Of a DNA stretch of 22,660 nucleotides, positions 1,509-17,281 are shown one piece after another. The notes under the pieces were generated by a model. It was not told the origin of the DNA. It ran no database searches and saw only the letters and a program-made list of their open reading frames with translations. The DNA lies in IMG/VR virus record IMGVR_UViG_3300005613_000432, positions 1 through 22,660 of that record. One strand, written 5' to 3'. Source of the stretch: a virus. Position 1 is the first letter of the stretch; each line of letters opens with the position of its first letter. A program made the position numbers and the translations under genes.

Positions 1509-4500
1509 TTATGTTATTCCCTCTCGCCGCAAATCAGCGGCCTGATGCTTGCTGACGATCCGGGCAATCTCACGCCCGTCCAACTTCACCGGTATCTCAA
1601 TCACCAGGGGTCGGCCGCCTCCAGCGCCGCCAACCATAGCCTCAGCCCCTCCTCCACCGTCAACCCCCAGAAAACGCTCCCCCACATGGGCCAACGCCGG
1701 GGCCGGCGACCCGAGCGGCCCCGGCATGGCCGCCATGGCCTGCGCCACATCAGATTGGCCAGCCTTCAGCGCCCCTACTAGCCCGGCCACCAGATTCTCG
1801 CCAAGAATCCACGTCTGCTTCGACGGCGACGCCACCCCGGCGGCCGCCTGCGCCGCAGCAATGGCCGCCGCCACAATACTGGCGATGGTCGAATATAGCG
1901 CCGAACTCTCGTTCTGCAGGCCGTCAATCATCCCCTGGATCAGTGATGTGCCTATGTTCCCGCCTGCCTCCGAGAAAGAAGCTGAGAAGCCTTGCATGTA
2001 ATTCTGTAGTGTTGTCATCAATGTCTGTACTGCCGCCGACATCTCGGTCGCTACAGCAGAAGTGGCCTCTATGAAACCATCGCGCAGTGCGAGTACCAGT
2101 TGCGTCCCTATTCCTCGCATATTGGGAACTTCGGCGCTCAGCCCGGCCAGTCTGCCCAAGGCGCTAATTACTTCCTCGATGCTCCCAACGACGGTATGAA
2201 CGTCGGCCAGTAGTTGGGTCAAATCGGCTTCTGCTGAGATGGCTGGAAAGATAGCAGTGATGTAGTCGATAGCATCAGTCAGATTGGTCGCCAGAGCGGT
2301 CAGCTCATCGATCAGGGATTCACTCTCATACTCGCCGATGCTCTCCATCGAGGACACCACCCCGCCAATATGCCCCATTAGCGCGTTGGCTTCTTCTGCC
2401 CATGAGGCGGCGGCGGCATTGGCCTCGGACCATGATACGCCTTCGAGTTCTGTAGTGATGGCATTGACTGCCTCTTGAAGATCTGCCGCCAGCTTCTCGA
2501 CAGCGGCGACTATGTTCTCCACCGAAACATACTCGCCGATGGCGACCAGGCTGTCTATAGCGCCAGCAATTGTCCCCACCAGCCCCGCCGCAAACTCCGC
2601 CCAAGCCGCCCGAATTGGTTCAAGTGCTCCCTCAGCGGTCACGTCTGGCACGGCGGCCTCATTCAGCACTCGGATGATCTCGGTCGCTGTTGCCTCCAGT
2701 TGTGAAACCAGGTTTTCGACGTTGGCAGTAGAGATTTCCAATCCCCCCTCGAAGGCGGCCAGCGTTTCCAGGTCGCCTATCACGCCTGCAATGGTCCCCA
2801 CCAGCCCCGCCGAGAACTTGAGCCACTCGGCCTTCAGCTCGTCGGCCTCCATTGTCGCCCAGGCGAACGTCTCGCCGACCGCGCCGATGGCGTTCAGGAT
2901 GAGCGTAGCCATTGAGTCCAATGAACTCACCAGGTTGGTTACATTGGACGCGCTGACTTCGATTCCGCCCTCGAAGGCCGCTATCTTCTGTGTGTTTTCA
3001 ATGACCCCCGCCAGGGTCGAAATCAGCCCTGCCGAGAAGTTCAGCCAGGCGGCCTTGAGTTGGTCTATCGAGTTGTCAGCTTGGAAATCAGAAGTCACGT
3101 CGCCGATGGCGTCTAAGATTTCGCCAACGAAAAACTTGAGCGTCCCTACCAGATTCGTCGCCGCGCCCCACTGAAACGTTAGCGGGCCTTCCAGTCCTGT
3201 TATAGTTTGCAAGTCTGTGACGACACTCGCCAGCGTAGACACCAACCCAGCCCCGAACTCCAGCCAGGCCGCCTTGAATCGGTCAATGGAATCATCGGCC
3301 TGGAAGTCCGATGTCACGTCGCCAATGGCGTCTAGGATGTCTCCCACGAATTGCTTTAGCGTCCCCACTAGATTGGTAACCGCGCCCCAGTGGAACGTCA
3401 GCCCGCCTTCAAATTCTGCCAGCGTTTTCACGTCCTCGATCACGCCCGCCAGCGTAGAGATAAGCCCTGCGCTGAAGTCCAGCCAGGCCTGATACATGGC
3501 TTGCGTCGTGGCCGCTCCCTCGTCCAGGATACCCGGCACGCGGGCCAGGCATTGCTTGATGTAGGTCACCGCCTGCGACAGCTTGTTCACTAAATCGCCT
3601 ACGGTTACGCTGCTCACCTCGATATCGCCTTCATAGGCAGTGATGGCGCGTAGATCGTCTATCATCCCTGCCACCGTAGACACTAGCCCCGCGGCGAAAT
3701 CCAGCCAGGATTGGTACGCTGCTTGCGTCGTGGCTGCTGCCTCGTCCAGGATGCCGGGCACCCTCGCCAGGGTTTGCTGGAGATACGTGACTGCTTGGGA
3801 CAGCTTGTTTATCAGGTCGCCTACGGTCACAGTGCTGACCTCAATATCTCCCTGGTAAGCGGTAACGGTGCGCAAGTCTTCTATCATTCCTGCGACCGCG
3901 CCAATCAACTGCCCCGCGAACTCGGCCCACTGCACCTGTAGCTCGCCCAGACCGCCGCCGTCGCCGATGGCCGCCGCCATTTGGCTTACCACGGATTTGA
4001 TGTCGTCTATCAGCGGCTTGATCGCCCCAGGTATGATGCCCGCGTAGTCTTTGACTTTGGTGAACGCCTCTGCTGCCTGGCCTACTACCTCCACCACACT
4101 GCCAACCGCCGAGGCCCACGATTCCATGTGCCCCCACACGGTGTCCTTGCGCTGGCCGCCCCATCCCCAGAGGTCCAGAAGTTCGGTGCGGACTTTGGTT
4201 AGCAGCATCTTGGTGTCCTCAATGAGCCGATCCAGCCCCGCCTCGAAGCCTGCCAGAGCAGGAAAGTCGGCCACGCCTGGGGCGATGTCCATCATGCCAC
4301 TGAAGGCGTCCACGAGCGACGACACCGCTTCGGCAACGGCGGTCACGGCCTCGGGCGCTTTGTCCTCAACGCCCGCGACAAGGCCCTGCATGATGTTTGC
4401 GCCGATTTCCATGAAGACCTTGGAGGGAGACTGGATGCCCAGGAAGTTTCTAACCGCTGCAGGAATCCGCCCTATGATTTCGTCAATCTTGGCTTTCAGG

Positions 4501-6656
4501 CCGCCCCATGCGTTTTCAAGCCCGCCCTTGATTCCCGCGATAAGCGCGTCCCCGATCTGGTTGGCCTTCGCCGCCAGCATGGGCACTGCCTCATTGATGA
4601 TCCATTCGCCTATCCCGGCTCCTAGCTCCATCAGGTTTTCAATGAGCCGTTCCTTCGCTTCCTGCACCCATCCGTAGAAGGCCATGCCCCACTCGCCGAT
4701 GCGAGAGATCAGCACGAGCAGCGTATCTCCTATGAATTTCAGGATGGCGATGCTAATGCCTGCCAGCCCCAGCAGCAGCTTGGGAATCATCGGAACTATC
4801 CAGTCCACGAACGCCAGCGCCCAGTCGCCTAGCCCCGCCACAATGGGACCCACCGCGCTTCCAATCCAGTCCAAGAATCGGTTCAGCATGCCGGGCCACT
4901 GGTCTATGAATTGCGCCGTGGCGGGTACGATCCAGGCAACGAACGCCTCCGCCCACTCGCCAAACTTTTCAGCGATCCTGCCAGCCTGTTCACCTATCCA
5001 CGCCAGAACGCTAGTCGCAAGCCCTTCCAGTCCCGCCACAATCTCAGGTATCTTTGGCCCTATCCAGCCTACGAACGCCTGTCCCCACTCAAGCACTTTT
5101 GCTGTGATGATAGGCACTTGTTCACCAATCCAGGTCAGTACGCCAGTCGCCAACTCTCCCAACCCCGTCACAATCTCAGGTATCTTTGGCCCTATCCAGG
5201 CGATGAAGGCCTCCGCCCACTCGCCAACCTTTTCCGTGATCACAGGTATCTGTTCGCCAATCCAGGCCAGAACGCTAGTCGCAAGCCCTTCCAGTCCCGC
5301 CACGATCTCAGGTATCTTTGGCCCTATCCAGGCGATGAAGGCCTCCGCCCACTCGCCAACCTTTTCCGTGATCACAGGTATCTGTTCACCTATCCACGCC
5401 AGAACGCTAGTCGCAAGCCCTTCCAACCCCGCCACAATCTCAGGTATCTTTGGCCCTATCCAGCCAATAAATGCCTGCGCCCACTCGCCAACCTTTTCCG
5501 TGATCACAGGTATCTGCTCGCCCACCCAGGTCAGTACGCCAGTCGCCAACTCTCCCAACCCCGCCACAATCTCAGGTATCTTTGGCCCTATCCAGGCGAT
5601 GAAGGCTGAGCCCCATTCTCCTAGCTTGGCAATGAGAACAGGCGCTTGTTCGCCTATCCAGGTCATAATGCCTCCGACAAACCCCCCCATCGCAGCCAAC
5701 GCCTCCGGAATCTTCGGCCCTATCCATTCCACCAAAGCATTGCCCCACCCCGCCAGCGCCTCGCCCAGGTTGCCCTCCTGGAAGGCGGCGATCACTTCAC
5801 CGACGAAGCCAATGAGATCGCTTATGGCGGGTATCAAATTGTCAGTCAGCCACCCCGCCAACCCCTCCGCCCACTCCGTCACCTGCGGCCCATACTCCTG
5901 CGCCAGGCTGGCTAGCGGGGTCAGTAGCGACATCAGGACGGGGATGAAGGCCGAACCTACCTCCGTAGTGATATTAGAGAAAGTGGTCTTAAGCTGCGCC
6001 ATCGTCGCCTGCGCCCCGCCCGTGCTCTCCCCCAGGCGCTCGATCATGTCCTGGCCCGCCGTCATGGCCTGGTTCATAAACGCCTGTTTCTTCTCAGCGT
6101 CGGTCAACTCGGCCACCGTCTTGCCCAGCGCGGCGGCGTAGTCCTCGTTGGCCTTCGCCATGTCCATCGTGATCCCCAAGTTGTCGATGATGAGCTTGCT
6201 GCTGCGGCCTATGCCCGTGACGAGAGACTGGAACATGAAGCCCATGTCCTCGCCTGTGGCGCGGCTGGCAACCTGAGCGATCTTGAGCATCTGGGGGAGT
6301 TCGTCGGCCACGTCCTGGCCAATGAGCAGCATAGCCTGATTAGCGCTCTTCATCAACTCGGCGTCGGTGATCATGCCCGCCGAGGCTTCTCTCATAGCGG
6401 ACAGCATAGTCGCCGCCGACGCGCCGGCGTCCTCTGCCAGCCGCTTGAAGCTCTGGCGCACCGGCTCCAACGCCGCCGCGTCCGATGCCAGCTTAAGAAC
6501 GCCAGCCCCCACCGCGCCCAGCGCAGCGCTGCCAGCGAGCATGAGCTTTCCAGCGGTCTTAGCCAGGCCGCCCAGGGATTTATCTATGCCGCTCAGGGTC
6601 TTTGATGCGTCATCCCTGGCCTTGATCACAATAGCCAATGCAGCATTAGACGCCAC
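1509..6656 (-). CDS. tape measure protein (1715 aa)
   Basis: This protein sets tail length during assembly and is probably injected with the DNA. It is by far the longest gene and directly follows the tail chaperone pair, the classical position. The start is GTG at 6656 with GGGAGG six bases upstream. The N-terminus resembles TMP families: 'DASKTLSGIDKSLGGLAKTA', a hydrophobic stretch at about 38-57, and a conserved block around residues 130-220. Residues about 300-625 hold a 44-residue repeat with regularly placed Trp. Residues about 900-1425 hold a degenerate repeat of about 74 residues. Two 'SPSK' blocks followed by a G-rich hydrophobic helix lie near 742 and 1612, typical of TMP C-terminal regions. 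At about 0.15 nm per residue, a family rule of thumb, the tail would be roughly 250 nm, which supports a siphovirus. Confidence 0.95.
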   Translation of the reverse strand: MASNAALAIVIKARDDASKTLSGIDKSLGGLAKTAGKLMLAGSAALGAVGAGVLKLASDAAALEPVRQSFKRLAEDAGASAATMLSAMREASAGMITDAELMKSANQAMLLIGQDVADELPQMLKIAQVASRATGEDMGFMFQSLVTGIGRSSKLIIDNLGITMDMAKANEDYAAALGKTVAELTDAEKKQAFMNQAMTAGQDMIERLGESTGGAQATMAQLKTTFSNITTEVGSAFIPVLMSLLTPLASLAQEYGPQVTEWAEGLAGWLTDNLIPAISDLIGFVGEVIAAFQEGNLGEALAGWGNALVEWIGPKIPEALAAMGGFVGGIMTWIGEQAPVLIAKLGEWGSAFIAWIGPKIPEIVAGLGELATGVLTWVGEQIPVITEKVGEWAQAFIGWIGPKIPEIVAGLEGLATSVLAWIGEQIPVITEKVGEWAEAFIAWIGPKIPEIVAGLEGLATSVLAWIGEQIPVITEKVGEWAEAFIAWIGPKIPEIVTGLGELATGVLTWIGEQVPIITAKVLEWGQAFVGWIGPKIPEIVAGLEGLATSVLAWIGEQAGRIAEKFGEWAEAFVAWIVPATAQFIDQWPGMLNRFLDWIGSAVGPIVAGLGDWALAFVDWIVPMIPKLLLGLAGISIAILKFIGDTLLVLISRIGEWGMAFYGWVQEAKERLIENLMELGAGIGEWIINEAVPMLAAKANQIGDALIAGIKGGLENAWGGLKAKIDEIIGRIPAAVRNFLGIQSPSKVFMEIGANIMQGLVAGVEDKAPEAVTAVAEAVSSLVDAFSGMMDIAPGVADFPALAGFEAGLDRLIEDTKMLLTKVRTELLDLWGWGGQRKDTVWGHMESWASAVGSVVEVVGQAAEAFTKVKDYAGIIPGAIKPLIDDIKSVVSQMAAAIGDGGGLGELQVQWAEFAGQLIGAVAGMIEDLRTVTAYQGDIEVSTVTVGDLINKLSQAVTYLQQTLARVPGILDEAAATTQAAYQSWLDFAAGLVSTVAGMIDDLRAITAYEGDIEVSSVTVGDLVNKLSQAVTYIKQCLARVPGILDEGAATTQAMYQAWLDFSAGLISTLAGVIEDVKTLAEFEGGLTFHWGAVTNLVGTLKQFVGDILDAIGDVTSDFQADDSIDRFKAAWLEFGAGLVSTLASVVTDLQTITGLEGPLTFQWGAATNLVGTLKFFVGEILDAIGDVTSDFQADNSIDQLKAAWLNFSAGLISTLAGVIENTQKIAAFEGGIEVSASNVTNLVSSLDSMATLILNAIGAVGETFAWATMEADELKAEWLKFSAGLVGTIAGVIGDLETLAAFEGGLEISTANVENLVSQLEATATEIIRVLNEAAVPDVTAEGALEPIRAAWAEFAAGLVGTIAGAIDSLVAIGEYVSVENIVAAVEKLAADLQEAVNAITTELEGVSWSEANAAAASWAEEANALMGHIGGVVSSMESIGEYESESLIDELTALATNLTDAIDYITAIFPAISAEADLTQLLADVHTVVGSIEEVISALGRLAGLSAEVPNMRGIGTQLVLALRDGFIEATSAVATEMSAAVQTLMTTLQNYMQGFSASFSEAGGNIGTSLIQGMIDGLQNESSALYSTIASIVAAAIAAAQAAAGVASPSKQTWILGENLVAGLVGALKAGQSDVAQAMAAMPGPLGSPAPALAHVGERFLGVDGGGGAEAMVGGAGGGRPLVIEIPVKLDGREIARIVSKHQAADLRREGIT
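2380..3945 (-). repeat. degenerate ~222-bp (74-aa) repeats inside the tape measure gene
   Basis: About seven to eight units encode the pattern W-x-x-F-x-A-G-L-x-x-T-x-A-G-x-I followed by a TAYEG/AFEGG block and a NLV/DLV helix. The first two or three units are close ('VTVGDLVNKLSQAVTY' recurs). Two middle units share 'AIGDVTSDFQAD'. Later units have drifted. Boundaries are approximate because I aligned by eye. They probably arose by in-frame duplication of a tape-measure building block. Confidence 0.75.
4780..5760 (-). repeat. 132-bp tandem repeats (44 aa) inside the tape measure gene
   Basis: The + strand string 'atctttggccctatcca' or a one-base variant recurs every 132 bases, at about 5050, 5182, 5314, 5446, 5578 and 5710. 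In protein this is six copies of WIGPKIPE followed by a GLE/GLG-GLAT-V-L-W-IGEQ block, plus two degenerate copies on the 4780 side. Neighbouring copies share long identical stretches (for example the segment around 5210-5260 recurs at 5342-5392). This suggests recent duplication or gene conversion rather than ancient drift. Outer limits are approximate. Confidence 0.9.
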
Positions 6657-6671
6657 CGAATACCTCCCTCA

Positions 6672-6872
6672 CTAACCCCGCGCTTTCGCAGCCGCCGCCT
6701 CAGCCCGCATCATCAAGACTATGTCATCCACCCGATGGTCTGGTGTATCCTGGAGTTCTCGCCAGCTCCAGCCCATATATTTACATATCAGGATCGGCGT
6801 CATACGAGCGGGATACTTGCCCTTCCCCATCGCCGCGTCCACCATGTCAAAACAAGGCATCCACGTCTTCAT
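6672..6872 (-). CDS. second tail assembly chaperone segment (lambda gpT-like, 66 aa)
   Basis: A 66-residue frame between the first chaperone and the tape measure. It overlaps the end of the upstream gene by 26 bases in a different frame. It encodes 'KYPARMTPILICKYMGWSWR', a short helical domain typical of the downstream partner in siphophage chaperone pairs, and a C-terminal Ala/Arg-rich helix. The ATG at 6872 follows a run of seven G with no spacer, so there is no normally placed ribosome site. Expression may therefore be mainly as a frameshift extension of the upstream protein. The family assignment rests on position, size and overlap, not on strong motifs. Confidence 0.75.
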   Translation of the reverse strand: MKTWMPCFDMVDAAMGKGKYPARMTPILICKYMGWSWRELQDTPDHRVDDIVLMMRAEAAAAKARG

Positions 6873-7266
6873 CCCCCCCAGACGAGCGGGTGGGATTGAA
6901 GTCGTTGATCTCCTCCAGGATGAACTCAGCGTAAGACTCGGAGAGCCGCCTGATATTCTTCCGTGAGAACGGCACTTCCTTCCCCTCGCGGGTGAACAGC
7001 GTCCACGACTTGATGCCTCTGTCCAGGATGGATAGATTCATCTTGCCCAGGACGATCTCGCTCTTTACCACCGCCCCGCGCTTTGCCTTACTGTCCTTCT
7101 CGCTGCCTTCCCAGTCGGCCGACAGCTTCATATACTCGCCAGACAAAGCCTGTCGGTCGGCGTAGGAGAACCTCTTGATGATCACTTCCTCGCCTTCCTG
7201 GAAAAAAGGCGCGGCGATAGTCTTCACGTCCCGCTCATCTATGAAGGCGTGAATTTCCTCAGCCAT
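6847..7266 (-). CDS. tail assembly chaperone (lambda gpG-like, 139 aa)
   Basis: A 139-residue soluble protein immediately after the tail tube gene and before the tape measure. ATG at 7266 has GGAGG seven bases upstream. In siphophages the gene here makes a chaperone that coats the tape measure protein during tail polymerisation, with a minor longer form made by frameshifting. The sequence is mostly charged helix ('GEEVIIKRFSYADRQALSGE', 'SESYAEFILEEINDFN') and ends in an acidic tail after a Gly-Gly encoded by the G run. It was called by synteny and by the overlapping second frame; primary sequence identity in this family is always low. Confidence 0.8.
   Translation of the reverse strand: MAEEIHAFIDERDVKTIAAPFFQEGEEVIIKRFSYADRQALSGEYMKLSADWEGSEKDSKAKRGAVVKSEIVLGKMNLSILDRGIKSWTLFTREGKEVPFSRKNIRRLSESYAEFILEEINDFNPTRSSGGDEDVDALF
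6873..6879 (-). other. G7 run, candidate -2/+1 programmed frameshift site
   Basis: On the minus strand the end of the chaperone gene reads TCT GGG GGG GAT GAA, with seven consecutive G. The downstream chaperone frame is +1, equal to -2, relative to this. After decoding GGG GGG, a two-base backward slip re-pairs the P-site tRNA with GGG and continues as GGG ATG AAG into the second frame. Most siphophage pairs use -1; phage Mu is known for a -2 shift on a G run. Direction and efficiency here are inference. Confidence 0.55.
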
Positions 7267-7303: not shown

Positions 7304-8311
7304 CTACGGCAGCGTAGCTACACCATTGTGCACCTGGATGCGGAACAGCTTGGCGTAAGTCGAATCGTACTGACCCGCCAGGGTCAACTCCACCAACGTC
7401 TGGCCGTCCTCCTCCGCCAGCTCCGCCACATTCTGGATCAGATAAGCCCCGTCGATGTAGATGTACTTGCTGGAGCCGCTCTCGATCTCAGAGCCCGTGC
7501 TCTCGATGCGTACTAACTGCACCGTCCCCGCGTCGTACTTGGTGGTGATCAGCGTCTTGGTCGTCGAATCCAACACCAGCCCCAGCACCAACTGCGGAGA
7601 GCCAAGCGCGAACTTCTTCTCACTGTGCTTGGTGAAATACTTCTGACCATCACTCGTCTGGAACGGCGCGAAGTGCTCGCCCATGTCCCAACCGAACCTG
7701 CGGAACGCAGTGGTGATCTGGGTGTCCCCCAACGTGCCACCGGCGTCGTCCATGTACAACTTGGACTTGTTCATCAGCACGCTCTCCACCGTCCGATCGG
7801 AGAGGTCCGCCGTGAAAGTGGTAGTGTCGTTCTTCCGCCCCACCAGCGGCGCCGTCACCTGCCAGATACCGTTCACATCGCCCTCGATCTTCAGCCCTGT
7901 AGCGAACGCATACGGAGCCTCCCACGCTTGCACGTCGTCCCCCCACTCCACGGTAAACGTCTTGGGCGTGTTGGCGCTGGTCAAGGCCGGATCGAAATCC
8001 CACAGATACGAGCTGGGATAATTCGAGCTGTCGGGCTGCGAGGCCGTCACCGTCTCGATGGCCATCAACAGCGGATAGATGATGTCCTCGAAAGTAACGT
8101 CGCCCACCAGGTCGCCCAACTCCGCCTTCTGCGACGGAGCCTCAGCCCGGAACGCCCCCACCAGCGAGCCGCGCTCCTCCTCTCGCTGCTGCCAATCTAG
8201 GTCGCCCACCGTCGGATGCAGCAAGAATTGCATCCACTTGGCCGTAGCTGCCACCGCTGTCCCGGCAGTATCCTCCGCACCCGCCTGTACCTTATAAAAT
8301 GGACTTGCCAT
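7304..8311 (-). CDS. major tail tube protein (335 aa)
   Basis: This is the probable subunit of the tail tube. ATG at 8311 has AGGAGG six bases upstream, lying inside the 3' end of the previous glycosyltransferase gene, with a 20-base overlap. The sequence is beta-rich and soluble, with a 'FTVEWGDDVQAW' strand, 'ATGLKIEGDVNGIWQVTAPL', 'ALGSPQLVLGLVLDSTT' and 'LVELTLAGQYDSTYAKLFRI'. The Gly-rich 'KIEGDVNG-W' block resembles siphophage tube proteins. It sits directly upstream of the chaperone pair and tape measure, the expected order. At 335 residues it is longer than lambda gpV, which is common for tube proteins with an added surface domain. The upstream glycosyltransferases might modify it, but nothing in this sequence proves that. 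Confidence 0.88.
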   Translation of the reverse strand: MASPFYKVQAGAEDTAGTAVAATAKWMQFLLHPTVGDLDWQQREEERGSLVGAFRAEAPSQKAELGDLVGDVTFEDIIYPLLMAIETVTASQPDSSNYPSSYLWDFDPALTSANTPKTFTVEWGDDVQAWEAPYAFATGLKIEGDVNGIWQVTAPLVGRKNDTTTFTADLSDRTVESVLMNKSKLYMDDAGGTLGDTQITTAFRRFGWDMGEHFAPFQTSDGQKYFTKHSEKKFALGSPQLVLGLVLDSTTKTLITTKYDAGTVQLVRIESTGSEIESGSSKYIYIDGAYLIQNVAELAEEDGQTLVELTLAGQYDSTYAKLFRIQVHNGVATLP

Positions 8312-9185
8312 GACTTACCTCCTTGGTTTTGATTGGATGCCCCTTCAGGGCCCCCGATAGCTTCTCTACCTTCTTCTTTGCCGCCCTCTTCCGCTTCCCG
8401 TGTCGCGCCTTCACCACGGACTGGCCCTCGACTTCCCGATAGAGACCCGAGGCTGCCAGCCCCTTCTGCGTCCTGCCCTTCCTGGCCAGCTCCAGCACGT
8501 CCCGCGCCGTTAGGTCACGCGCTGGCACGCCGATCAAGAAGCGACTGCCTCCCACGAACTTTAGAGCTTTTTCCATCCACTTCCTCCTGAATAATTCGCC
8601 CGCCTCCTCGATATGTCGGCTCGTCTCGGCAGTGTGGCTGCCGCGACCCAGATGCACCACGGCGGGCTCGGTGGTGACGAACTTGCGACCGTCCAGGACG
8701 GCCCGATACGACAAGTCCAGGTCGTCGTAGCCAAAGAAAAACTGCTCGTCGAAGCCGCCAACGCTTTCAAACCAGTCCCGTCGCACCGCACAGCAAGCTC
8801 CGCTGATAAAGTTGGTATACCGTGAGGGCTGGCCGTCGGGCTTCATCTGCTCAGCGCCCGCGATGGCCACGTCGGGATCATCAAAGGCGTCCAACACCCC
8901 CTCTAGCCAACCCTGGCTGAGCTCTATATCCGTGTTGAGGAAGAGGACGATCTCCGCCTCCCCCGCCGCCGCCCCCTGGTTGCACGCTTTGGCAAAGCCC
9001 GTGTTCTCCTCGTTCAGGACGGACGCTACGTCTACCTGCTCCATCAGCCATTCGTGCGTGCCATCAGTCGAGCCATTATCTACCACCACATAACTGGCCT
9101 GCGGCGCAGTCGCCTCTATCTGGATGATGAGTCCCTGGAGGAGGGGGAGCGTATTGTAAGACGGAATTACTATATCAACCTTCAT
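8292..9185 (-). CDS. family 2 glycosyltransferase with a basic C-terminal extension (297 aa)
   Basis: This is a GT-A fold sugar transferase of the rhamnosyltransferase-like type. Visible motifs in order are 'DIVIPSYN' (4-11), 'VVVDNGSTDGT' (33-43), 'NTGFAKACNQG' (61-71), the DXD-like 'FLNTDIEL' (82-89), and 'FFFGYDDLDLSYRA' (149-162), which holds the usual acidic catalytic region. It transfers a nucleotide-activated sugar to an unknown acceptor, probably in the cytoplasm. The enzyme core ends near 205. Residues about 209-252 carry 'FLIGVPARDLTARDV' and 'ASGLY', a pattern I recall from small phage head-region proteins. A Lys/Arg-rich tail follows (257-297). ATG 9185 overlaps the previous stop (ATGA). 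It is the last gene of a four-gene cassette and runs into the tail tube gene. Confidence 0.92.
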   Translation of the reverse strand: MKVDIVIPSYNTLPLLQGLIIQIEATAPQASYVVVDNGSTDGTHEWLMEQVDVASVLNEENTGFAKACNQGAAAGEAEIVLFLNTDIELSQGWLEGVLDAFDDPDVAIAGAEQMKPDGQPSRYTNFISGACCAVRRDWFESVGGFDEQFFFGYDDLDLSYRAVLDGRKFVTTEPAVVHLGRGSHTAETSRHIEEAGELFRRKWMEKALKFVGGSRFLIGVPARDLTARDVLELARKGRTQKGLAASGLYREVEGQSVVKARHGKRKRAAKKKVEKLSGALKGHPIKTKEVSHGKSIL

Positions 9186-9844
9186 AGGCCCATCTCCTCC
9201 ACATACCGCCGCGTCACTGCCTCGCGCTCCTGATAGTGATGCGGACGGTGACTATAACCCACCCCGTCCCCCTCTGGTAGATTTACCAGCCGATCGTGCA
9301 GCTCCAGCGACGCCAGATGCACAGGCTGCCCCTCGCCCACCGCCAGCGAGAACCAGATGTCCTCGTGAATCCAGAGGCCGTTCACATCCCTCGGCGGCCT
9401 GAGCTCAGGAAAGCCCGCCCGTCTCAAAATGTGCTTTCGGAACATCCAGAAGCGGCTCTTGACGATCTCCACGCTCCCAAAGGCGTCCTGAGCATAGAAC
9501 GGCGGCGACTTGCCCAACCTCCGCCCAAACGCCCCTGTAATGGCGTCTGGTCGCTGCTTGGCCAGCGCCAGCGCGTCGGCCACGAATCTCACGTCCCCAG
9601 GCTTCAGGTCGTCCTGGATCACCATCACCCAGTCGGTACGAGCATACAGGGCGAAGGGGATCACCAGGAACGGCCCCGCGTCCCATGGAATGTGAACCGA
9701 CCGCTCCACCCCAAAATCCTCACAGCCAGCGTTATTGATCAGCAGCAACTCGGGCCGCTCGGTCTGCGCCCGCAGCATGGCGATGATCTGGGCCATGTTC
9801 TGAGGGCGTTTGTAGTTTATGAGAATGGCAGTGACTTCAGTCAT
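9182..9844 (-). CDS. glycosyltransferase-like protein (220 aa)
   Basis: A compact GT-A-like enzyme. It begins 'TAILINYKRPQNM' (5-17), where a nucleotide-binding strand is expected, has the acidic 'VMVIQDDL' (73-80) in the DXD position, and 'LWIHEDIWFSLAVG' (157-170) where the catalytic acid of GT2-like enzymes usually lies. Donor and acceptor sugars cannot be read from sequence. It starts at ATG 9844 overlapping the upstream stop, and ends overlapping the next enzyme, so the cassette is translationally coupled. It has no membrane segment or signal peptide, so it is probably cytoplasmic. At 220 residues it is near the minimum for a full GT-A domain. Confidence 0.82.
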   Translation of the reverse strand: MTEVTAILINYKRPQNMAQIIAMLRAQTERPELLLINNAGCEDFGVERSVHIPWDAGPFLVIPFALYARTDWVMVIQDDLKPGDVRFVADALALAKQRPDAITGAFGRRLGKSPPFYAQDAFGSVEIVKSRFWMFRKHILRRAGFPELRPPRDVNGLWIHEDIWFSLAVGEGQPVHLASLELHDRLVNLPEGDGVGYSHRPHHYQEREAVTRRYVEEMGL

Positions 9845-10374
9845 CCCTCCGACCCCCGATCCACCTCGGCCGCCACCCTATCCAGCCAATAAAACGAACA
9901 GCCGATGTCCCACAGCTTGCGAATGAAATAGAAATCCCCACAGAGGGCCTTCCCAAAACTTGTGATGTGCTCCTGCCAAACCTCGCGCCTCGCCAGGAAA
10001 CAGGGCGAGCCAATCTTGCCCAGCACAGGCGGCCCCCGCCAGTTCGCCCCATCTGGCAGCACCTCCCCCCCGAAGTGCAGCCGCCGCATCCTGACCACGA
10101 TCACGTCGGGATCATCTTTAGCCGCCTTCTTCGCCTCCGCCACGAAATTGGGGTCGCACAGGTAATCATCGTCGTCCAGGATGTAGACGTACCGCCCCTT
10201 CAACACAGGCCCCGCCGCGGCCAGGCTGATATTGGCGTCGAGCAGTCCGTCCGCGCCCTCGATAAAGACCTGCTCCAGGTCTGGATCCGTCTGAGCGGCG
10301 ACCGAGCGCTTGTTGCGCTCCAGCAGTTCCTCGCGGCCTGGGCTGCATCGGGTGACGATGGATAGGAATGGCAT
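9841..10374 (-). CDS. glycosyltransferase-like protein (177 aa)
   Basis: A small GT-A-like protein: 'PFLSIVTRCSPGREELLERN' at the N-terminus, a strand-helix unit, then 'GRYVYILDDDDYL' (60-72) with the acidic metal-binding cluster expected of a DXD site, and 'SPCFLARREVW' later. I chose ATG 10374, which overlaps the previous stop as TGATG and lies eight bases after GGGGGAGG. A GTG at 10377 is an equally spaced alternative that adds one residue. The domain looks short at its C-terminus compared with usual GT2 enzymes of 220-300 residues, so it may need a partner from the cassette or may act on small substrates. Substrate is unknown. Confidence 0.78.
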   Translation of the reverse strand: MPFLSIVTRCSPGREELLERNKRSVAAQTDPDLEQVFIEGADGLLDANISLAAAGPVLKGRYVYILDDDDYLCDPNFVAEAKKAAKDDPDVIVVRMRRLHFGGEVLPDGANWRGPPVLGKIGSPCFLARREVWQEHITSFGKALCGDFYFIRKLWDIGCSFYWLDRVAAEVDRGSEG

Positions 10375-10985
10375 CACCTATACCTCCCCCTCGCCTTCGC
10401 CTCCGTCACCCACAACTTCCCGTAGTACACCTGCTTCAACTTCGTCCTGGCCTCAGACCGCTTCGACTGCAAATGCACCAGATGACAACCCGCCATCACC
10501 GCACACTCCAACGGATCGTTCACCCGCACCCCATCCACCCGATACACCCAATGCCCAGGGCTAACCTCCAGGCTCTCGTGATGCCTCACCACGCGGGGAA
10601 TGGGATACGGCAAAGCGTGGGGCGCGTCCCGCCTCAGCCCGATCATATAGGCCGGCGCCGTCAGGCCATCGGGCAACTCCCCCACCAACCGCTCGTCAGC
10701 GTCAATGAACAGGTAGTAATCGCCTTCCTCACCGACCAGGCACGCCGTCCGCTTGATACACTCGTCGGGCCAGCAGCCAGGGGGAGGCATGATCACGCCG
10801 GCTCCGTAGTCCAGCGCAATCTCCACCGTCCGATCCGTGCTACACCCGTCGGGGTGCTGATGAGGGAAGTCGGCGTAGGCCCCGTCCACCACCACGCACC
10901 GAGCGACCTTGCCCGCCAGAGAATCCAGGCAGCCCTCGATCATACCCTCTTCATCAAAGGCGATCACGCAGGCGATCCACATCAT
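10374..10985 (-). CDS. glycosyltransferase family 2-like protein (203 aa)
   Basis: First enzyme of the glycosylation cassette. 'WIACVIAFDEEGMIEGCLDS' (3-22) is a typical start of GT2 proteins that add sugars to lipid or protein. It is followed by 'CVVVDGAYADF' (30-40), 'CSTDRTVEIALDYG' (48-61) and the DXD-like 'YLFIDADERL' (91-100). C-terminal conserved His residues lie in 'HHESLEVSPGHWVYR'. I chose ATG 10985, which overlaps the stop of the tail terminator gene (ATGATG). The frame stays open upstream to 11015, but that would overlap the previous gene by 34 bases. The stop overlaps the next enzyme. Acceptor is unknown; virion proteins or cell-surface glycans are the natural guesses. Confidence 0.83.
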   Translation of the reverse strand: MMWIACVIAFDEEGMIEGCLDSLAGKVARCVVVDGAYADFPHQHPDGCSTDRTVEIALDYGAGVIMPPPGCWPDECIKRTACLVGEEGDYYLFIDADERLVGELPDGLTAPAYMIGLRRDAPHALPYPIPRVVRHHESLEVSPGHWVYRVDGVRVNDPLECAVMAGCHLVHLQSKRSEARTKLKQVYYGKLWVTEAKARGRYR

Positions 10986-11425
10986 GCCCCCGTCACAATC
11001 GCCTCGTGGCACCAAACCTCCAGGCGCAGCGCCGCGCCGATGTAATCCGTATCAAACGGCGGCAACAGGCCCACGCGATAGCCCGTGATCAACGCCTGCT
11101 TTACCGTGGCTAGTTCGTCCAGGGTTAGCGCTTGGGCATAGCGAACTATGAAACGGTCGATGAACGGCGCCGCGTCGCCAAAGTTCTGAGCGATGCTTCC
11201 CTGCCCCAGGGGGCTGACGTAGACACAAAGCCAGATGTTATGTTTATTGTGCGAAAGCTGCCCAGCGGAGAAGGCAATGTCGCCCTCGTCCAGCAGGGGC
11301 ACGGCGGCGGGTAGGTTGCCTGTAGGCAGCGTCTGGGGCAGGTCGTCATAGCTATAGGCGGTCACAATGCCTGTGATCCCCGCGTTGATGTCCTTGATTC
11401 GGTCGAAGACAGTCTCCAGGCTCAC
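10982..11425 (-). CDS. tail terminator-like / head-tail joining protein (147 aa)
   Basis: A 147-residue protein right after the head-tail connector gene. It starts with GTG at 11425, five bases after AGGAGG; that ribosome site also encodes the last two Arg codons of the upstream gene. Size, position and the alternation of helices and strands ('FIDRFIVRYAQALTLDELAT', then 'YIGAALRLEVWCHEAI') fit the small proteins that cap the tail tube or occupy the neck. These families are too divergent for a firm name by eye. The usual next gene is the tail tube; here four glycosyltransferase genes come between. Confidence 0.65.
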   Translation of the reverse strand: MSLETVFDRIKDINAGITGIVTAYSYDDLPQTLPTGNLPAAVPLLDEGDIAFSAGQLSHNKHNIWLCVYVSPLGQGSIAQNFGDAAPFIDRFIVRYAQALTLDELATVKQALITGYRVGLLPPFDTDYIGAALRLEVWCHEAIVTGA

Positions 11426-11427
11426 GC

Positions 11428-12222
11428 CTACCTCCTGTGGTAAAACGTTGTCGCGTTCTGAATGTCCGTCGGCAACGAGGCCGGCACATGCACCGCCCCC
11501 GTCTCAGGAAACGCTATCTTCATAAATGGAGCGTCTTTCTGCTTATAGAGCCAGGCCGCCAGCCTCAGTACCCAGTGCACCACGTCCGCCGAGGGCTGCC
11601 AGATGGTGATGGCCGAGGCGGCCGTGTGCTCTGCCGCCGTCGTGCCATTCTTGCCCCGCTCCACCGTCAAGGCATTGTCCGTAATAGCCGTTATGTACAG
11701 TTGCTCGCTCCCGATCTTGACAACCTGCTGCACCGCGAAGTTGTCACCGTCAGACACGTTCAGCGTAGTTGCCGCCGCCGTCAGCGGGTCGTCCTGCACC
11801 GTATCCCCCGAGCTGGCCCAGGCGTTGTCGTAGTCGTTGTGCCAGCCCCATAGCCCTAACACTGTGATGGCCCGCTGCCGCGTGCTCAAGTAGTTGAAAG
11901 ACTCCCCGCAGTTCTTTTCGATTTCAATCCACAACTTGGGATAGAAATTCAACGGATACAGGAAATAATCGTCCGAGGAGATAGCATCCCCGTCGCCGTT
12001 GGTGAGCGTAGTGAGACTGAGCAGATCGGCTGCGAGGCGCAACTCGTAGGCGTCCTGGTAGTCGTAATACCGCGTCTCCAGCTTCTCGAAGAAGGACCGC
12101 CGCGTCAGCGTGTCCCAGATGCGACTAGCGCGCGTGCAGATATTCTTGAGCAGAGCATCATCGCCCGCGCCCGTGACGCCCAGGTAGGTTTTCAGGTCTG
12201 AAAATCCAACATACTCGTTCAT
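11428..12222 (-). CDS. head-tail connector / head completion protein (264 aa)
   Basis: The N-terminus 'YVGFSDLKTYLGV' and 'DDALLKNICTRASRIWDTLT' is the small helical fold of phage head-tail adaptors (HK97 gp6-like), which dock below the portal. Such adaptors are usually 100-200 residues. Here a beta segment follows at about 145-205, 'TAAATTLNVSDGDNF', 'VVKIGSEQLYITAI' and 'LTVERGKNGTTAAEH'. It resembles a small module I have seen inserted in other phage structural proteins. The C-terminal helix 'VVHWVLRLAAWLYKQKDAPF' completes the adaptor. ATG 12222 overlaps the lipoprotein stop as ATGA, and the last codons supply the ribosome site of the next gene. Confidence 0.75.
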   Translation of the reverse strand: MNEYVGFSDLKTYLGVTGAGDDALLKNICTRASRIWDTLTRRSFFEKLETRYYDYQDAYELRLAADLLSLTTLTNGDGDAISSDDYFLYPLNFYPKLWIEIEKNCGESFNYLSTRQRAITVLGLWGWHNDYDNAWASSGDTVQDDPLTAAATTLNVSDGDNFAVQQVVKIGSEQLYITAITDNALTVERGKNGTTAAEHTAASAITIWQPSADVVHWVLRLAAWLYKQKDAPFMKIAFPETGAVHVPASLPTDIQNATTFYHRR

Positions 12223-12722
12223 CTCTGCCAGTAGATGTAAGCCTTCAGGGTGCTGGTAGACGATTCGGATACTGCGACCCGAACGTAGTCGTCCACCCAG
12301 AAGGGCTCATAGATCTCGTTTGTGCCATCGAAGGTGACGTTAGTGTTCGTGTTGTCCTGCACCGTCCGCCGAGGATAGACCCAGGTGTCGGTGTAGTAGT
12401 TGCTGAGCGACAGGATGGTATCCGACGGTGCATGTTCAGCCCCAATCACCACATCGGTGGTGGTGGAGATGTCGGCAGTATAGTTGAGATAGATAGCCAT
12501 CACCTGGCCGCGCACCATCTCGTCAGTATCAGCAGTCCCCGTCGCGGCCCCCGCTGCCCCGCTCACCGTCACCGATGCCAGCGCCCGGCCCACGCCAAGC
12601 GATTGAGTGGCGGCTGCGGGAACACACTGCCCGCATCCCGCCAGGCCGATCAGCAGAGCCAGGACCAGGCATAGGCCCAAAAGCGCCGCCAGGCCGGGTC
12701 TCAGGATAGGCTGTATCTTCAT
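12219..12722 (-). CDS. predicted lipoprotein with a phage structural-type domain (167 aa)
   Basis: ATG 12722 overlaps the previous stop and has GGAGG seven bases upstream. Residues 1-30 form a classic type II signal: 'MKIQPILRP', a Leu-rich core, then lipobox 'LAGC' with Cys30. That predicts export and lipid attachment in the host membrane. The mature part looks like an all-beta virion accessory domain: 'GQVMAIYLNYTADISTTTDV', 'SLSNYYTDTWVYPRR', and a final 'VDDYVRVAVSESSTSTLKAY' strand pair. Phage proteins with that last motif are common near capsid genes, usually without a signal peptide. The role is unknown: a membrane-anchored virion part, an assembly anchor or a superinfection factor are all possible. 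It lies between the capsid and connector genes. Confidence 0.72.
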   Translation of the reverse strand: MKIQPILRPGLAALLGLCLVLALLIGLAGCGQCVPAAATQSLGVGRALASVTVSGAAGAATGTADTDEMVRGQVMAIYLNYTADISTTTDVVIGAEHAPSDTILSLSNYYTDTWVYPRRTVQDNTNTNVTFDGTNEIYEPFWVDDYVRVAVSESSTSTLKAYIYWQR

Positions 12723-12981: not shown

Positions 12982-14616
12982 CTACTGCAAGTTGATCTCG
13001 AACATCAGCAGCCACTCGCTGTCGAAACACATGAACCCCAACACGTCGTACTGGTCAATCGCCAGCGCGTTCCCGTCAGTGGTCCGAAGGTTCGTGGCAT
13101 TGACGTTGTAAGTCTGCGCGCTGTCCGCTGCCAGGTAGAGCATCTGCCCATCGGTGCAGCTACTTCCGAGAGTGAATGTTACTGTGCCCGAAGCCGTCAG
13201 GTTGTAGGCTGAGATGGTGGTGGGGGTTATCGTATCCCCGTCGCTTACCGCCAGGTCGTCGGCTTCCTGCAGGATCAGACCGTTGCTCATCACCAGGTTG
13301 CCTGCCACGGTCGCGCCGCCGTCCAGCCTGGCCGCGCCGTCCGCCTCCAGCGTCCCCTCCACATAGGCGTCTTCGCCATTCAGAGTAAGAGACGGTGAAC
13401 CGTCGCCGACCTTCAGGTTGCCAGTTTCGATGACCATGTAGCCGCTTGCGCCGCCGATGGTGTAGGTGATCACGTCGTCCGAGCTTGCCGCCGAGGTCGT
13501 GTCACTATCGGCGTCCCAAGTGATGGTCTGGCCCGCGATGTCGATGGCGCCGTCTACATCAACGGCGTCGAGATTGGTCGTGCCGTCCACGTCCAGATCG
13601 GTGTCGATGTCAGCACTGCCATTGACTTCCAGGTCGCCCTCGATCCCAACGTCATTATCACCGTCTGCGGTGGTGTAAGTGCCGCTACCGAAGTCTGTGA
13701 GTCCGCCGTCTATCGCTAGGCCATATACTGAACCAACGTCAATGTCAATGCCCTGCGTGATAGTCTCATTCGCGTCTAAGTGGATCGCGTCAGCAGCTTC
13801 TTCATCGCCCTTGACGGTTACGCTCCCCGTCTCAGCCTCTACCGTGATGTCGCCGCTGGCTGTATTGACATTGAACGCTCCTGTGCCGTCCACAGAGAAC
13901 GGCCCGCCGTCAATCGTAAGGCCGCTGGTGGCGCCCGTGTCAATGTTGATACCAGAAGTCACAGTATCGTTGGCGTCCAGGTGAATAGCACTGGCGTCCG
14001 CTTCACTGCCGATGATATTCACGCTTCCCGTTTCCGCGTCGATGGTGATGTCGCCAGTGGAAGCGCTCAGATTCGTTGCGCCATCGGTATCTATCGACCC
14101 GCCCGCCGTGATGTCCACGTCAAAGGCCGAGCCGTCCAGGTCGAAGGCGCCGTCCACATCAAGCGTGTCATTGATGACCACGTTCCCGTCGGGCACATCA
14201 AGAGCTGTGGCGGTGTTGGTCCCTGTGATGATCAACTGTTCCGCCGACGTATCCCAGTGCAAGTAATCCCCCGCAGTGTCAGAGTAGAAGATCACGTCTG
14301 CACCAGTCCCGTCAACGCCCATCGTGAACGCGCCCGCCAGGGCCAATGTCCCCTCGGCGTCCAGGTTCCCCGTCGCGCCGTCTATGTGAAACTTCTGCGT
14401 AGACAGATCGTCGGAGTAGAAATAAGCATCGGCTCCGTACCTCCACCAACAGTCCTTGCTGGCCAGGATGGCAATGCGCTCCCTGGCCTGAGCCCCTACG
14501 CCAGGCGTATCGACCTCGACCCACCCGCTCTGGTCAACCGCAGGCAGGAAGCAGCCAACGACCGCCGCTATCAAGGCGATCACAGCGAGCGCCTTGTAGA
14601 AAGGAATCTTGTTCAT
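12982..14616 (-). CDS. predicted lipoprotein with DLDVDG-type beta repeats (544 aa)
   Basis: I chose ATG 14616, which has GGAGG seven bases upstream. The frame is open further up, but that would overlap the capsid gene and gives non-protein-like sequence. Residues 1-22 are a lipoprotein signal: 'MNKIPFYK', a hydrophobic core, then lipobox 'VVGC' with Cys22. The remainder is acidic, Asp/Gly/Thr-rich and repetitive, as in beta-helix or fibre shafts. Two copies of a block of about 50 residues (188-238 and 255-305) share 'AETGSV' and 'AIHLDAN', with a 67-residue period. Shorter 'DLDVDG', 'GDLEVNG' and 'GTLEADG' units follow. The C-terminal 150 residues ('ITPTTISAYNLTASGTVTFT', 'DQYDVLGFMCFDSEWLLMFE') form a separate domain, probably for trimerisation or binding. 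A surface-attached adhesin or head fibre is possible. Confidence 0.78.
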   Translation of the reverse strand: MNKIPFYKALAVIALIAAVVGCFLPAVDQSGWVEVDTPGVGAQARERIAILASKDCWWRYGADAYFYSDDLSTQKFHIDGATGNLDAEGTLALAGAFTMGVDGTGADVIFYSDTAGDYLHWDTSAEQLIITGTNTATALDVPDGNVVINDTLDVDGAFDLDGSAFDVDITAGGSIDTDGATNLSASTGDITIDAETGSVNIIGSEADASAIHLDANDTVTSGINIDTGATSGLTIDGGPFSVDGTGAFNVNTASGDITVEAETGSVTVKGDEEAADAIHLDANETITQGIDIDVGSVYGLAIDGGLTDFGSGTYTTADGDNDVGIEGDLEVNGSADIDTDLDVDGTTNLDAVDVDGAIDIAGQTITWDADSDTTSAASSDDVITYTIGGASGYMVIETGNLKVGDGSPSLTLNGEDAYVEGTLEADGAARLDGGATVAGNLVMSNGLILQEADDLAVSDGDTITPTTISAYNLTASGTVTFTLGSSCTDGQMLYLAADSAQTYNVNATNLRTTDGNALAIDQYDVLGFMCFDSEWLLMFEINLQ

Positions 14617-14643
14617 TGTAGAACCTCCTGTTATTGGTTTGTA

Positions 14644-14672
14644 GGGGGATGCGAATTTGGTTCGCATCCCCC
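14644..14672 (-). other. strong stem-loop after the capsid gene
   Basis: GGGGGATGCGAA (14644-14655) pairs perfectly with TTCGCATCCCCC (14661-14672), leaving a five-base loop. It lies 12 bases after the capsid stop. On the minus strand the bases after the stem are 'tacaaaccaataac', with no T-run, so classical termination is unlikely. An RNA processing or 3'-stabilising role for the abundant capsid message is plausible. Confidence 0.6.
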
Positions 14673-14683
14673 CAGGCTTAACT

Positions 14684-17281
14684 TCACACGGTGATGTTGT
14701 AGGAAACCGCAGACACGTCCGTGTCAAAGTTGATGAAGGCCAGGCGCGCAGTGGCCATGATGTAGTGCGCGTCGGCCAAGGGCACCTTCTCCACCGCCAG
14801 CTTGATGTGACGCCTGAAACCCACCAGCCAGCCAGGCCGATAGACAGCGAGCAGTCTACCCAGCGTCCCGCCGCCGCTCGGGATCTTCCCCGAGCTGTTG
14901 GCCAGCGCCATCTGCTCGGAGACGATGATGGGCACGCCAAACATTGAGAGAAGCTGTCCAGTCAGGATCGTGGCCTTGGGGCCGAGTTTGTCCAACGTCA
15001 GGCAATCGTCGATGGGGATGGCCTTCTGGTAGGTATGGTAGTCCACGACGAAGGCCAGCTTGGTCGGGTCAACCCCATACTTCCCCATCAGCGCGCGGGT
15101 CAGCATGAAGTCGTCTGAGGTCAGCGTTCCACCATCTCGCGAGTTGTCAGTGTTGGTCACCAAGCAATTCTTCAACAGGCCATTGAACACCAGGTATTTG
15201 TTTCTCTTGTTGCCAGTGCTGGTCGGCGTGTCGTCGATGAGGTTGATGTTGGTGCTGGCTCCAGTTTCCGTGTCGCCGTTCAGGAGCACATTGTCCACCG
15301 CCGCCTCCATTGCCATGCCCATCTGGGCGCGCAGCTGAGCCGCGATGGGGATGATCGAGTCCTCGACCAACTCCTCAGTGTACGGCACGAAAGCCCCCAA
15401 CTTCTTGGCGTTCAGAGTCTTGTAACCAGTGGCGACCGTGGATTCGCCAATGGGCTGATTAGAGCCGATGGTCATTTGAGCTAGGTCGTCGGTCTCCGCG
15501 ATGTAGTACACGGTTGGATCAGCGCCTTCGTAGGGCAGGCGGTAGGGATCGCTCGGCATCTCCAGCGTGCGGAAAAGCCCCAGCACCTTGTTATCCAGGC
15601 GCAACTTGTGCCACAACTCGCTGGCGTAGATCGTGGGAACCCATTCCAGGCCATAGCCCGAGACATCCGAGCCCAGCAATTCGTCGGCCTTGACCCCCAG
15701 CGCCTTCAGTCCGCCGATAGCCTTGGCTTCCATCCGACCCTTCTCAACCGCATCGAAGGACTTCATCGCACAAGCCTTGACGATGGCGTCAGACGGGGTC
15801 TGTCCGGCCCCCTTGATGCACTCGATAGCGAAAGCCAGGTCGCCAGCGTCCAGGTGGCCATAGCGATGATCCAAATCCAACGCGCCGCTCGTAGCGATGT
15901 TGACCGGGAAGTCGATCTTGCGCCCCTTCACCATCGTCAGGGCCATCTCTCTGGCCCTGGTCTCAATCTTCTCATCCTCAGCTTTCTTGGCCGCGGCCGC
16001 CTCTTCCTCGGCCAGCGCCTTGGCCGCCAGCGCATCCTCTACGCGCTGAGCAACCAGTTCATTTAGTTTGCTCTCGTCCATGTCAAAAACCTCCTGAGTT
16101 TTGATTGATCCGCCCCCCTCTGGCGGCGGGTTATCCTCGCTGTTCACAGAGCTCACGCCCTCTCCCCCGACGCCCTTCAGGCCCGTAGCGCCCGCATCCC
16201 CTGCGGCTTTGCGCTCGGCTTCGCCCTCGTTGGCGTCAAGGTCGAAAGTCGTGTCTATTGATAGTAGAGATTTGAGTGGCATAACGATATTGCGAGACTC
16301 ACATGGCTGGTGCGTAAGACTCGCGTCTTTGCCGAGAGGCCATCGTGTGATCTGGTTAGCCTTGCCCTCCGGCCTGCTTTTCACCAGGTGCTGTGGTACG
16401 CCCGACGACCAACCCAGCTTGCCCAGCTTCGCCTGCTCCAACAGAAACGCCTCATACTCCTTGCGCTCGTCGAGCAGAGTTTCACACCAGATGCCGAAGT
16501 CGGTGAGAGTCAGAGTTGACGGGTGTAGCTTGCCTTCTATCACCAACTCCTTCCCGCTCTTCGTCCTGATTGGCTGAGCATGATGAAAGTAGGTGGTAGA
16601 TTTGCCAGGGAGCTCGATGTCGTAGTCAGTCTCTGGCGGGGGCGTGAAGAAGTCGCCCACCAGGTCGGGGTCATCTGACGTAGTAAAGCGAACCAGATAC
16701 CCCCCTACTCGGCCATCGCCGAGAGCCTTCACCGCGCCTCCCTGAGCAACGAGCGTCTCATCAATCGCTTTAGCCGGGACCTCCTCGCTCTCACCCTGCT
16801 CCGTTTCACCAATTGCTCCCGTTTCTTGCTCGTCCATATTCACCTCCATATTCTTAGCCTGCCCCGCGTCGGCGCGGGGGTGCCCCCCGCCTCCGCCGGC
16901 CGCCCGTTGGGCATCGGCGACTAAACCTTTGCTTCCTTCTGGTTCTTCTCCTGGCTTCGCCCCCCGCATCTTCGCGCCGCACTTGGGGCACTCCATCTCC
17001 GCGCAGGCCGCGCCGCGCTCGTGCTCCGCCAGGTAGCCGCACTCAGGACAAATGCACCAGTCCGCGCCGCCTACTCCCTGGCGGTCGCCACCTACACCCT
17101 GGCCTTCGCCGAGGGCCTTTTCCCCGTGCGCGGCCCGCCATTGGCTGTGGCACATAGCCACGGCCTGACCCCGCTGCTTCTCATCCTCCGCGTCTAGCCC
17201 CTCCGCCTTGATCACGGCGGGCGTGCAGCGCCCGATAAACTCCTGCGCAGTTTCGTTCTCGTTAGGTGTCGGTAGTGGCAT
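14684..17281 (-). CDS. prohead protease-scaffold-major capsid fusion protein (865 aa)
   Basis: One continuous frame from ATG 17281 (GGAGG five bases upstream). Residues 10-50 hold 'AQEFIGRC' and 'QAVAMCHSQWR', a short motif common at the start of phage head proteins. Residues 76-101 form a zinc-ribbon-like CPECG...CPKCG pair. Residues about 185-335 match a U9/S78-type prohead protease: 'GYLVRFTTSDDPDLVGDFF', a His in 'TYFHHAQ' (233/234), Ser in 'LGWSSGVPQH' (292/293) and 'ASLTHQP' (320-326). Residues 401-455 are a charged helix like an HK97 delta domain. About 460-865 is an HK97-fold capsid ('YGLEWVPTIYASELWHKLRL', 'TYQKAIPIDDCLTLDKLGPK', 'LLAVYRPGWLVGFRRHIKL'). Protease and capsid are separate genes in many phages. 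Two strong internal ribosome sites suggest shorter products are also made. Confidence 0.93.
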   Translation of the reverse strand: MPLPTPNENETAQEFIGRCTPAVIKAEGLDAEDEKQRGQAVAMCHSQWRAAHGEKALGEGQGVGGDRQGVGGADWCICPECGYLAEHERGAACAEMECPKCGAKMRGAKPGEEPEGSKGLVADAQRAAGGGGGHPRADAGQAKNMEVNMDEQETGAIGETEQGESEEVPAKAIDETLVAQGGAVKALGDGRVGGYLVRFTTSDDPDLVGDFFTPPPETDYDIELPGKSTTYFHHAQPIRTKSGKELVIEGKLHPSTLTLTDFGIWCETLLDERKEYEAFLLEQAKLGKLGWSSGVPQHLVKSRPEGKANQITRWPLGKDASLTHQPCESRNIVMPLKSLLSIDTTFDLDANEGEAERKAAGDAGATGLKGVGGEGVSSVNSEDNPPPEGGGSIKTQEVFDMDESKLNELVAQRVEDALAAKALAEEEAAAAKKAEDEKIETRAREMALTMVKGRKIDFPVNIATSGALDLDHRYGHLDAGDLAFAIECIKGAGQTPSDAIVKACAMKSFDAVEKGRMEAKAIGGLKALGVKADELLGSDVSGYGLEWVPTIYASELWHKLRLDNKVLGLFRTLEMPSDPYRLPYEGADPTVYYIAETDDLAQMTIGSNQPIGESTVATGYKTLNAKKLGAFVPYTEELVEDSIIPIAAQLRAQMGMAMEAAVDNVLLNGDTETGASTNINLIDDTPTSTGNKRNKYLVFNGLLKNCLVTNTDNSRDGGTLTSDDFMLTRALMGKYGVDPTKLAFVVDYHTYQKAIPIDDCLTLDKLGPKATILTGQLLSMFGVPIIVSEQMALANSSGKIPSGGGTLGRLLAVYRPGWLVGFRRHIKLAVEKVPLADAHYIMATARLAFINFDTDVSAVSYNITV
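16081..16095 (-). promoter_or_regulatory. internal ribosome site and start for scaffold-capsid product
   Basis: Inside the protease-capsid frame, AGGAGG (16090-16095) lies eight bases before an in-frame ATG at 16081 (Met401, 'MDESKLNELV'). This would yield a 465-residue scaffold plus capsid protein without the protease. The sequence is as good as any ribosome site in the window. Confidence 0.65.
16837..16847 (-). promoter_or_regulatory. internal ribosome site and start for protease-capsid product
   Basis: GGAGG (16843-16847) lies five bases before an in-frame ATG at 16837 (Met149, 'MDEQETGAIG'). Starting here removes the zinc-ribbon leader and gives 717 residues. The true main start of the protease-capsid protein may be this one. 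Confidence 0.55.

Follow-up and report, generated by a model that had tools for sequence, protein, structure and literature searches.

Glycosyltransferase (GT) genes placed among phage structural genes are known from two clusters of mycobacteriophages. In cluster O, GT genes lie inside the structural operon (PMC4351075), and cluster J phages carry GT cassettes within the structural operon whose roles were called unknown in a 2013 paper (PMC3706429). Three papers report virion glycosylation for mycobacteriophages including Corndog, and also report that the cluster O GTs modify the capsid and the tail tube (PMC11600133, PMC12619734, PMC12363180). In the literature searched, experimental support for virion glycosylation was confined to a few mycobacteriophages. 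GT cassettes in structural operons and the glycosylation of virions are thus a kind of system already known, so that the suggestion in the original prediction of an undescribed pathway holds for only some of its parts. What appears to be new at the locus described here is the exact insertion slot, a GT64-like enzyme, and a core-plus-variable pattern across unrelated tails, none of which was found in the literature searched.

The locus lies in a virus record of 22,660 bases, the whole of which was analyzed and is referred to as the window. Its structural genes are on the minus strand in the order terminase, portal, neck, capsid, adaptor, terminator-position gene, GT1 to GT4, tail tube, chaperones and tape measure. 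The four consecutive GT genes occupy 10985–8292 (−), between the terminator-position gene and the tail-tube gene, and encode GT1 (10374–10985, −; 203 aa), GT2 (9841–10374, −; 177 aa), GT3 (9182–9844, −; 220 aa) and GT4 (8292–9185, −; 297 aa). The reading frames were confirmed, as was the predicted overlap of no more than four bases between successive GT genes. The overlaps are 4 bases for terminator/GT1, 1 base for GT1/GT2 (or 4 from an alternative in-frame GTG start of GT2 upstream at 10377), 4 for GT2/GT3 and for GT3/GT4, and 20 for GT4/tube. An acidic DXD-type motif had been noted in each enzyme and is present (FIDADE, ILDDDD, VIQDD and FLNTD, respectively), with an additional YDDLDL motif in GT4. 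No transmembrane segments were detected in GT1, GT2, GT3 or GT4, as expected of cytoplasmic enzymes with a soluble acceptor. We also considered whether the cassette is recently acquired foreign DNA, but the GC content and third-position GC content of GT1–GT4 do not stand out.

The gene upstream of the cassette (10982–11425, −; 147 aa), which follows the head-tail adaptor gene (phrog_442), had been called a tail terminator. Its position and size agree with this assignment, but it matches no family in Pfam or PHROGs and its similarity to other terminators is not significant, so the name used here is positional. On the other side of the cassette lies the gene for the major tail-tube protein (7304–8311, −; 335 aa), which matches phrog_290 (tail; E 3e-6). 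Its structural model is of low confidence (mean pLDDT 41), and the structures it matches best are for the most part tail tubes and Hcp. The tube gene is followed by those for a tail assembly chaperone (6847–7266, −; 139 aa; weak phrog_313 match, E 0.012), a probable second chaperone product whose ORF overlaps the end of the first (6672–6872, −; 80% conserved in the relative L003 described below) and the tape measure protein (1509–6656, −; 1715 aa; phrog_5493, E 2.8e-45). A Shine-Dalgarno sequence for the tube gene, AAGGAGG, can be read at 8318–8324 (−) inside the end of GT4. With this strong site of its own, the tube can be translated independently, and the proposal that expression of the GTs is locked to tail-tube translation was too strong.

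The cassette resembles the Corndog and Che8 systems in consisting of several tandem phage-encoded GTs, and its placement among late structural genes is of the cluster O type. Corndog gp35–gp38 and Firecracker gp33–gp36 are likewise tandem, overlapping GT genes within the structural operon, but the cluster O cassette sits between the genes for portal and protease and also encodes an O-methyltransferase. The Firecracker record stands for cluster O in our sequence comparisons with the Corndog kind; GT4 has a weak but significant match to Firecracker gp35 (E 5.6e-6, Z=200), and no relatives of GT2 or GT3 were found among the cluster O enzymes at the threshold used. Cluster J phages (Omega, Thibault, Wanda) also have several GT genes in the structural operon, and the Mycobacterium phage Wanda gp24 glycosyltransferase is the best pairwise and best phage match of GT1, with the common motif VDGAYxxFP. 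Their GT insertion, however, lies between the capsid and head-tail connector genes and is accompanied by kinase and methyltransferase genes. The window tube was also compared with the Wanda major tail protein, and no homology was found. Che8 gp108–gp110 are three tandem overlapping GTs for which virion glycosylation is reported, but they lie apart from the structural genes, at the right end of the genome. A GT2 profile matches Che8 gp108 weakly (E 0.009, Z=200), and the GT2 homologue of the contig L008 introduced below matches it with E 6e-5. GT3 has no similarity to the known virion-glycosylating enzymes compared (Firecracker, Che8).

The original description of all four enzymes as GT-A-like is supported in each case by relatives, profile or fold, although unevenly. 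GT4 is a clear member of the GT2 family (PF00535, E 5.2e-19; 69.2 bits versus a curated cut-off of 23.3). GT1 (PF00535, E 0.0018; phrog_7009, E 0.0022; searched with a longer ORF) and GT2 (PF00535, E 0.0019; phrog_14775, E 2.4e-5) fall below the PF00535 cut-off (18.7 and 18.6 bits versus 23.3) and are thus called GT2-family-like only, on the basis of motifs and relatives. Relatives of the small enzyme GT2 occur in five further viral contigs (38–75% identity) with invariant DDD and GD motifs; residues D67–D69 are invariant in 6 homologues, and one homologue also matches PF00535 in its N-terminal part. Single-sequence pattern scans, which reach close homologues only, found no GT1 relatives in viral contigs. 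In GT4, N84-T85-D86 is kept in its one close homologue (L003, 64% identical). GT4 also has a basic C-terminal extension of ~90 aa that on its own has no significant family match. It has a motif presumably similar to one in phage structural proteins, but its assignment as a virion-protein domain was unsupported by Pfam, NCBIfam, PHROGs and phage tblastn. As originally proposed, the four enzymes are not recent duplicates: the best cross-match among them is GT2/GT3 with E 0.002 over 32 residues.

GT3 searched alone had no Pfam, PHROG or NCBIfam match, and PF09258 (Glyco_transf_64) was matched by neither GT3 nor its L003 homologue. A distant homologue in the contig L010 does pass the PF09258 cut-off (25.7 versus 21.3), and because it is the only one to do so, GT3 is termed 'GT64-like'. 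A six-member GT3 profile finds EXTL2 (1omx, E 5.9e-8) over positions 4–227 of 234, effectively its full length, as well as exostosins. Of the checks suggested with the original prediction, structure prediction and fold search were run on GT3 and gave a GT-A fold closest to EXT2 (Foldseek, 5.3e-7) and EXTL2 (6.0e-7), from a model of moderate confidence (mean pLDDT 64; first 100 residues mostly ~80). D78, D79 and D162 are invariant in six homologues. Taken together, the profile matches and predicted fold identify GT3 as an exostosin-like GT-A enzyme, albeit one of phage origin with only ~16% identity to the GT64 enzymes. A genome scan with GT3 yielded two bacterial MAG loci with distant relatives and no phage context seen there, and direct relatives of GT2, GT3 and the tube were absent from 50,697 phage records.

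Relatives of the tail tube were found in the viral contigs L003, L011 and L012. In L003 (IMGVR_UViG_3300009529_000032), the order GT2-GT3-GT4-tube-chaperone-tape measure start is kept, with amino acid identities of 75, 81, 64, 75, 79 and 71%, respectively. GT1 is absent from L003, where the terminator-position gene abuts GT2, and a search for GT1 in G001 and G003 did not find it. The DNA similarity between the window and L003 sets in with the opening codons of GT2 (window 10369), suggesting that cassette and tube move as one recombination block; the genes directly upstream of the block in L003 are unrelated or far more diverged, and the head genes differ strongly. Comparison with L003 gave dN/dS values of 0.149/0.744 for GT2, 0.122/0.743 for GT3, 0.276/1.089 for GT4 and 0.200/0.809 for the tube. 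All four are under purifying selection, and in the three GTs dN is no more than about one quarter of dS.

The same slot is occupied in a second contig, L008 (IMGVR_UViG_3300028837_000751). Here, the terminator-position gene is followed by genes for a GT-B enzyme and for homologues of GT2 (38%) and GT3 (41%), and directly after this cassette come two tube paralogues in tandem (L008:5927–6706). Both share homology with the major tail protein of Sinorhizobium phage phi3LM21, not with the window tube. The expectation that the tube gene normally follows the terminator directly was borne out in cassette-free relatives of both tubes, in which the two genes are adjacent or almost adjacent. In phi3LM21 the two genes are 9 bases apart, and no GT separates the terminator-position gene from the tube in L011 (tube 43% identical to that of the window) or L012 (34%). 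Co-occurrence of cassette and tube among related phages was thus seen for GT2–GT4 in L003, but not in these two contigs. With the slot filled in the window/L003 and in L008 and GT-free in relatives of both tubes, it has been used in two tail lineages, and these are the two independent instances found. Tube relatives without the cassette are about the same length and have no evident missing acceptor region. In L011, a GT-B glycosyltransferase gene lies directly before the head-tail adaptor gene (L011:4786–6435) and no GT is beside the tube.

Relatives of GT2, GT3 and GT4 are also found outside the tube slot, where the contigs L007, L009 and L010 have glycan-type clusters that carry sulfotransferase-like, cytidylyltransferase and ABC-importer genes, indicating that these families are not bound to tubes. 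L009 and L010 each combine a GT2-type with a GT3-type gene and also carry a cytidylyltransferase and a sugar-type ABC importer; this association speaks for a shared pathway of the two enzymes. The clusters of L009 (1305–8531) and L010 (2888–9727) have in common the cytidylyltransferase, a solute-binding protein, two permeases of the carbohydrate-type importer and the GT2 and GT3 homologues, at 36–63% identity. The L010 cluster comes after a GP7-like major capsid gene. A sugar importer encoded by a phage would be unusual.

The recurrence of some of these GTs in the same slot of two other phages, one with an unrelated tube, suggests that the phage sugar-coats its own particle. We consider it probable that the locus is a virion-glycosylation cassette of modular build, in which GT2 and GT3 form a constant core with exchangeable flanking enzymes, and that its target is a late virion protein. 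The core would consist of the small GT-A enzyme GT2 and the exostosin-like GT3, which, going by its family, probably transfers hexosaminyl or hexuronosyl residues. The flanks appear to be exchangeable: GT1 is present here and absent in L003, and the position of GT4 would be taken in L008 by the GT-B enzyme. A pair that stays while its partners change is in keeping with a glycan whose inner part is conserved and whose outer sugars vary. The GTs would be made late, from a polycistronic message shared with the tail proteins, and in the cytoplasm they would assemble a short glycan on a virion protein, drawing on nucleotide sugars of the host. The leading candidate acceptor is the tail tube encoded directly downstream, possibly along with another abundant virion protein, and the likely benefit would be a changed particle surface affecting adsorption, stability or shielding.

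Several other readings have to be weighed against modification of the tube. The slot could be a permissive insertion site only, with another virion protein in place of the tube as the target, for example the major capsid protein or a 652-aa Ser/Thr-rich protein (12982–14940). In this sub-case of virion glycosylation, the GTs found next to capsid or connector genes elsewhere (after the GP7-like capsid gene in L010, before the adaptor gene in L011 and after the capsid gene in Wanda) would be easily accommodated, and the 652-aa protein is indeed 19.3% Ser/Thr with one stretch of 13 Ser/Thr in 30 residues. It is a possible but not a favored reading, since in L003 GT2–GT4 are inherited along with the tube but the head genes are very different, and since the slot recurs in L008. 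That the GTs act on host surface glycans, causing superinfection exclusion or receptor change, seems unlikely, although phage GTs often have such a role. GT4 and GT3 are weakly similar to lipid-carrier GTs such as GtrB, and the related clusters in L007, L009 and L010 resemble glycan-building clusters. However, gtrABC-type serotype-conversion operons differ from the cassette, which in this fragment record has neither a membrane flippase neighbor nor a membrane-bound GT. The lack of membrane components makes host-surface modification less likely, and the late structural-operon position and co-inheritance with the tube also speak against it.

Glycosylation of hypermodified bases in the phage DNA is improbable. 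Hypermodification of DNA by virus-encoded GTs has been reported (Pyle et al. 2024, as cited in PMC12619734), but no thymidylate-synthase-type hydroxymethylase was found in eight records, all of them treated as fragments, and the late operon position of the GTs argues against this role as well. A search for Tet/JBP gave no match in these records, and its control was also silent. With the records taken as fragments, genes for a flippase or for DNA modification could be located beyond their ends. The view that the GTs are decaying or passenger genes without function in the window phage can draw on the failure to find GT1 in the relative, but it is very hard to reconcile with the intact frames, the conserved catalytic residues and a dN well below dS for GT2–GT4. 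Given the absence of membrane segments, the placement with tail genes and the co-inheritance with the tube, glycosylation of a late virion protein is the most economical reading. The virion target favored in the original prediction thus gains support from the tube co-inheritance in L003 and the reuse of the slot with an unrelated tube in L008.

A more specific and decidedly tentative extension is that a module for glycosylating the tail tube has docked more than once at the junction of the terminator and tube genes. In this module, the conserved GT2 and exostosin-like GT3 would make the inner glycan, and the exchangeable outer enzymes would vary the sugars that coat the tail. This would be the phage equivalent of surface-glycan variation, and it would lie beyond the actinobacteriophages, the group in which virion glycosylation is known. 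If the cassette does glycosylate the tail tube, virion glycosylation would extend to unrelated environmental phages and would employ an exostosin-like enzyme within a portable module of fixed core and variable ends. With four small soluble enzymes and a likely acceptor encoded within 3.7 kb, the system is experimentally tractable.

Three other genes of the window are of note. The major capsid protein (14684–17281, −; 865 aa) has a phage-capsid match on its C-terminal part only, and its long N-terminal part has weak zinc-ribbon/IBR-type matches. In the head-tail adaptor (11428–12222, −), a C-terminal domain (residues ~146–211) matches tail-fiber and virion-structural families. Finally, a lipoprotein-like gene within the head-tail operon (12219–12722, −; signal segment followed by LAGC) is partly conserved (48%) in L003 (5196–5516) and possibly encodes a superinfection-exclusion or host-envelope protein.
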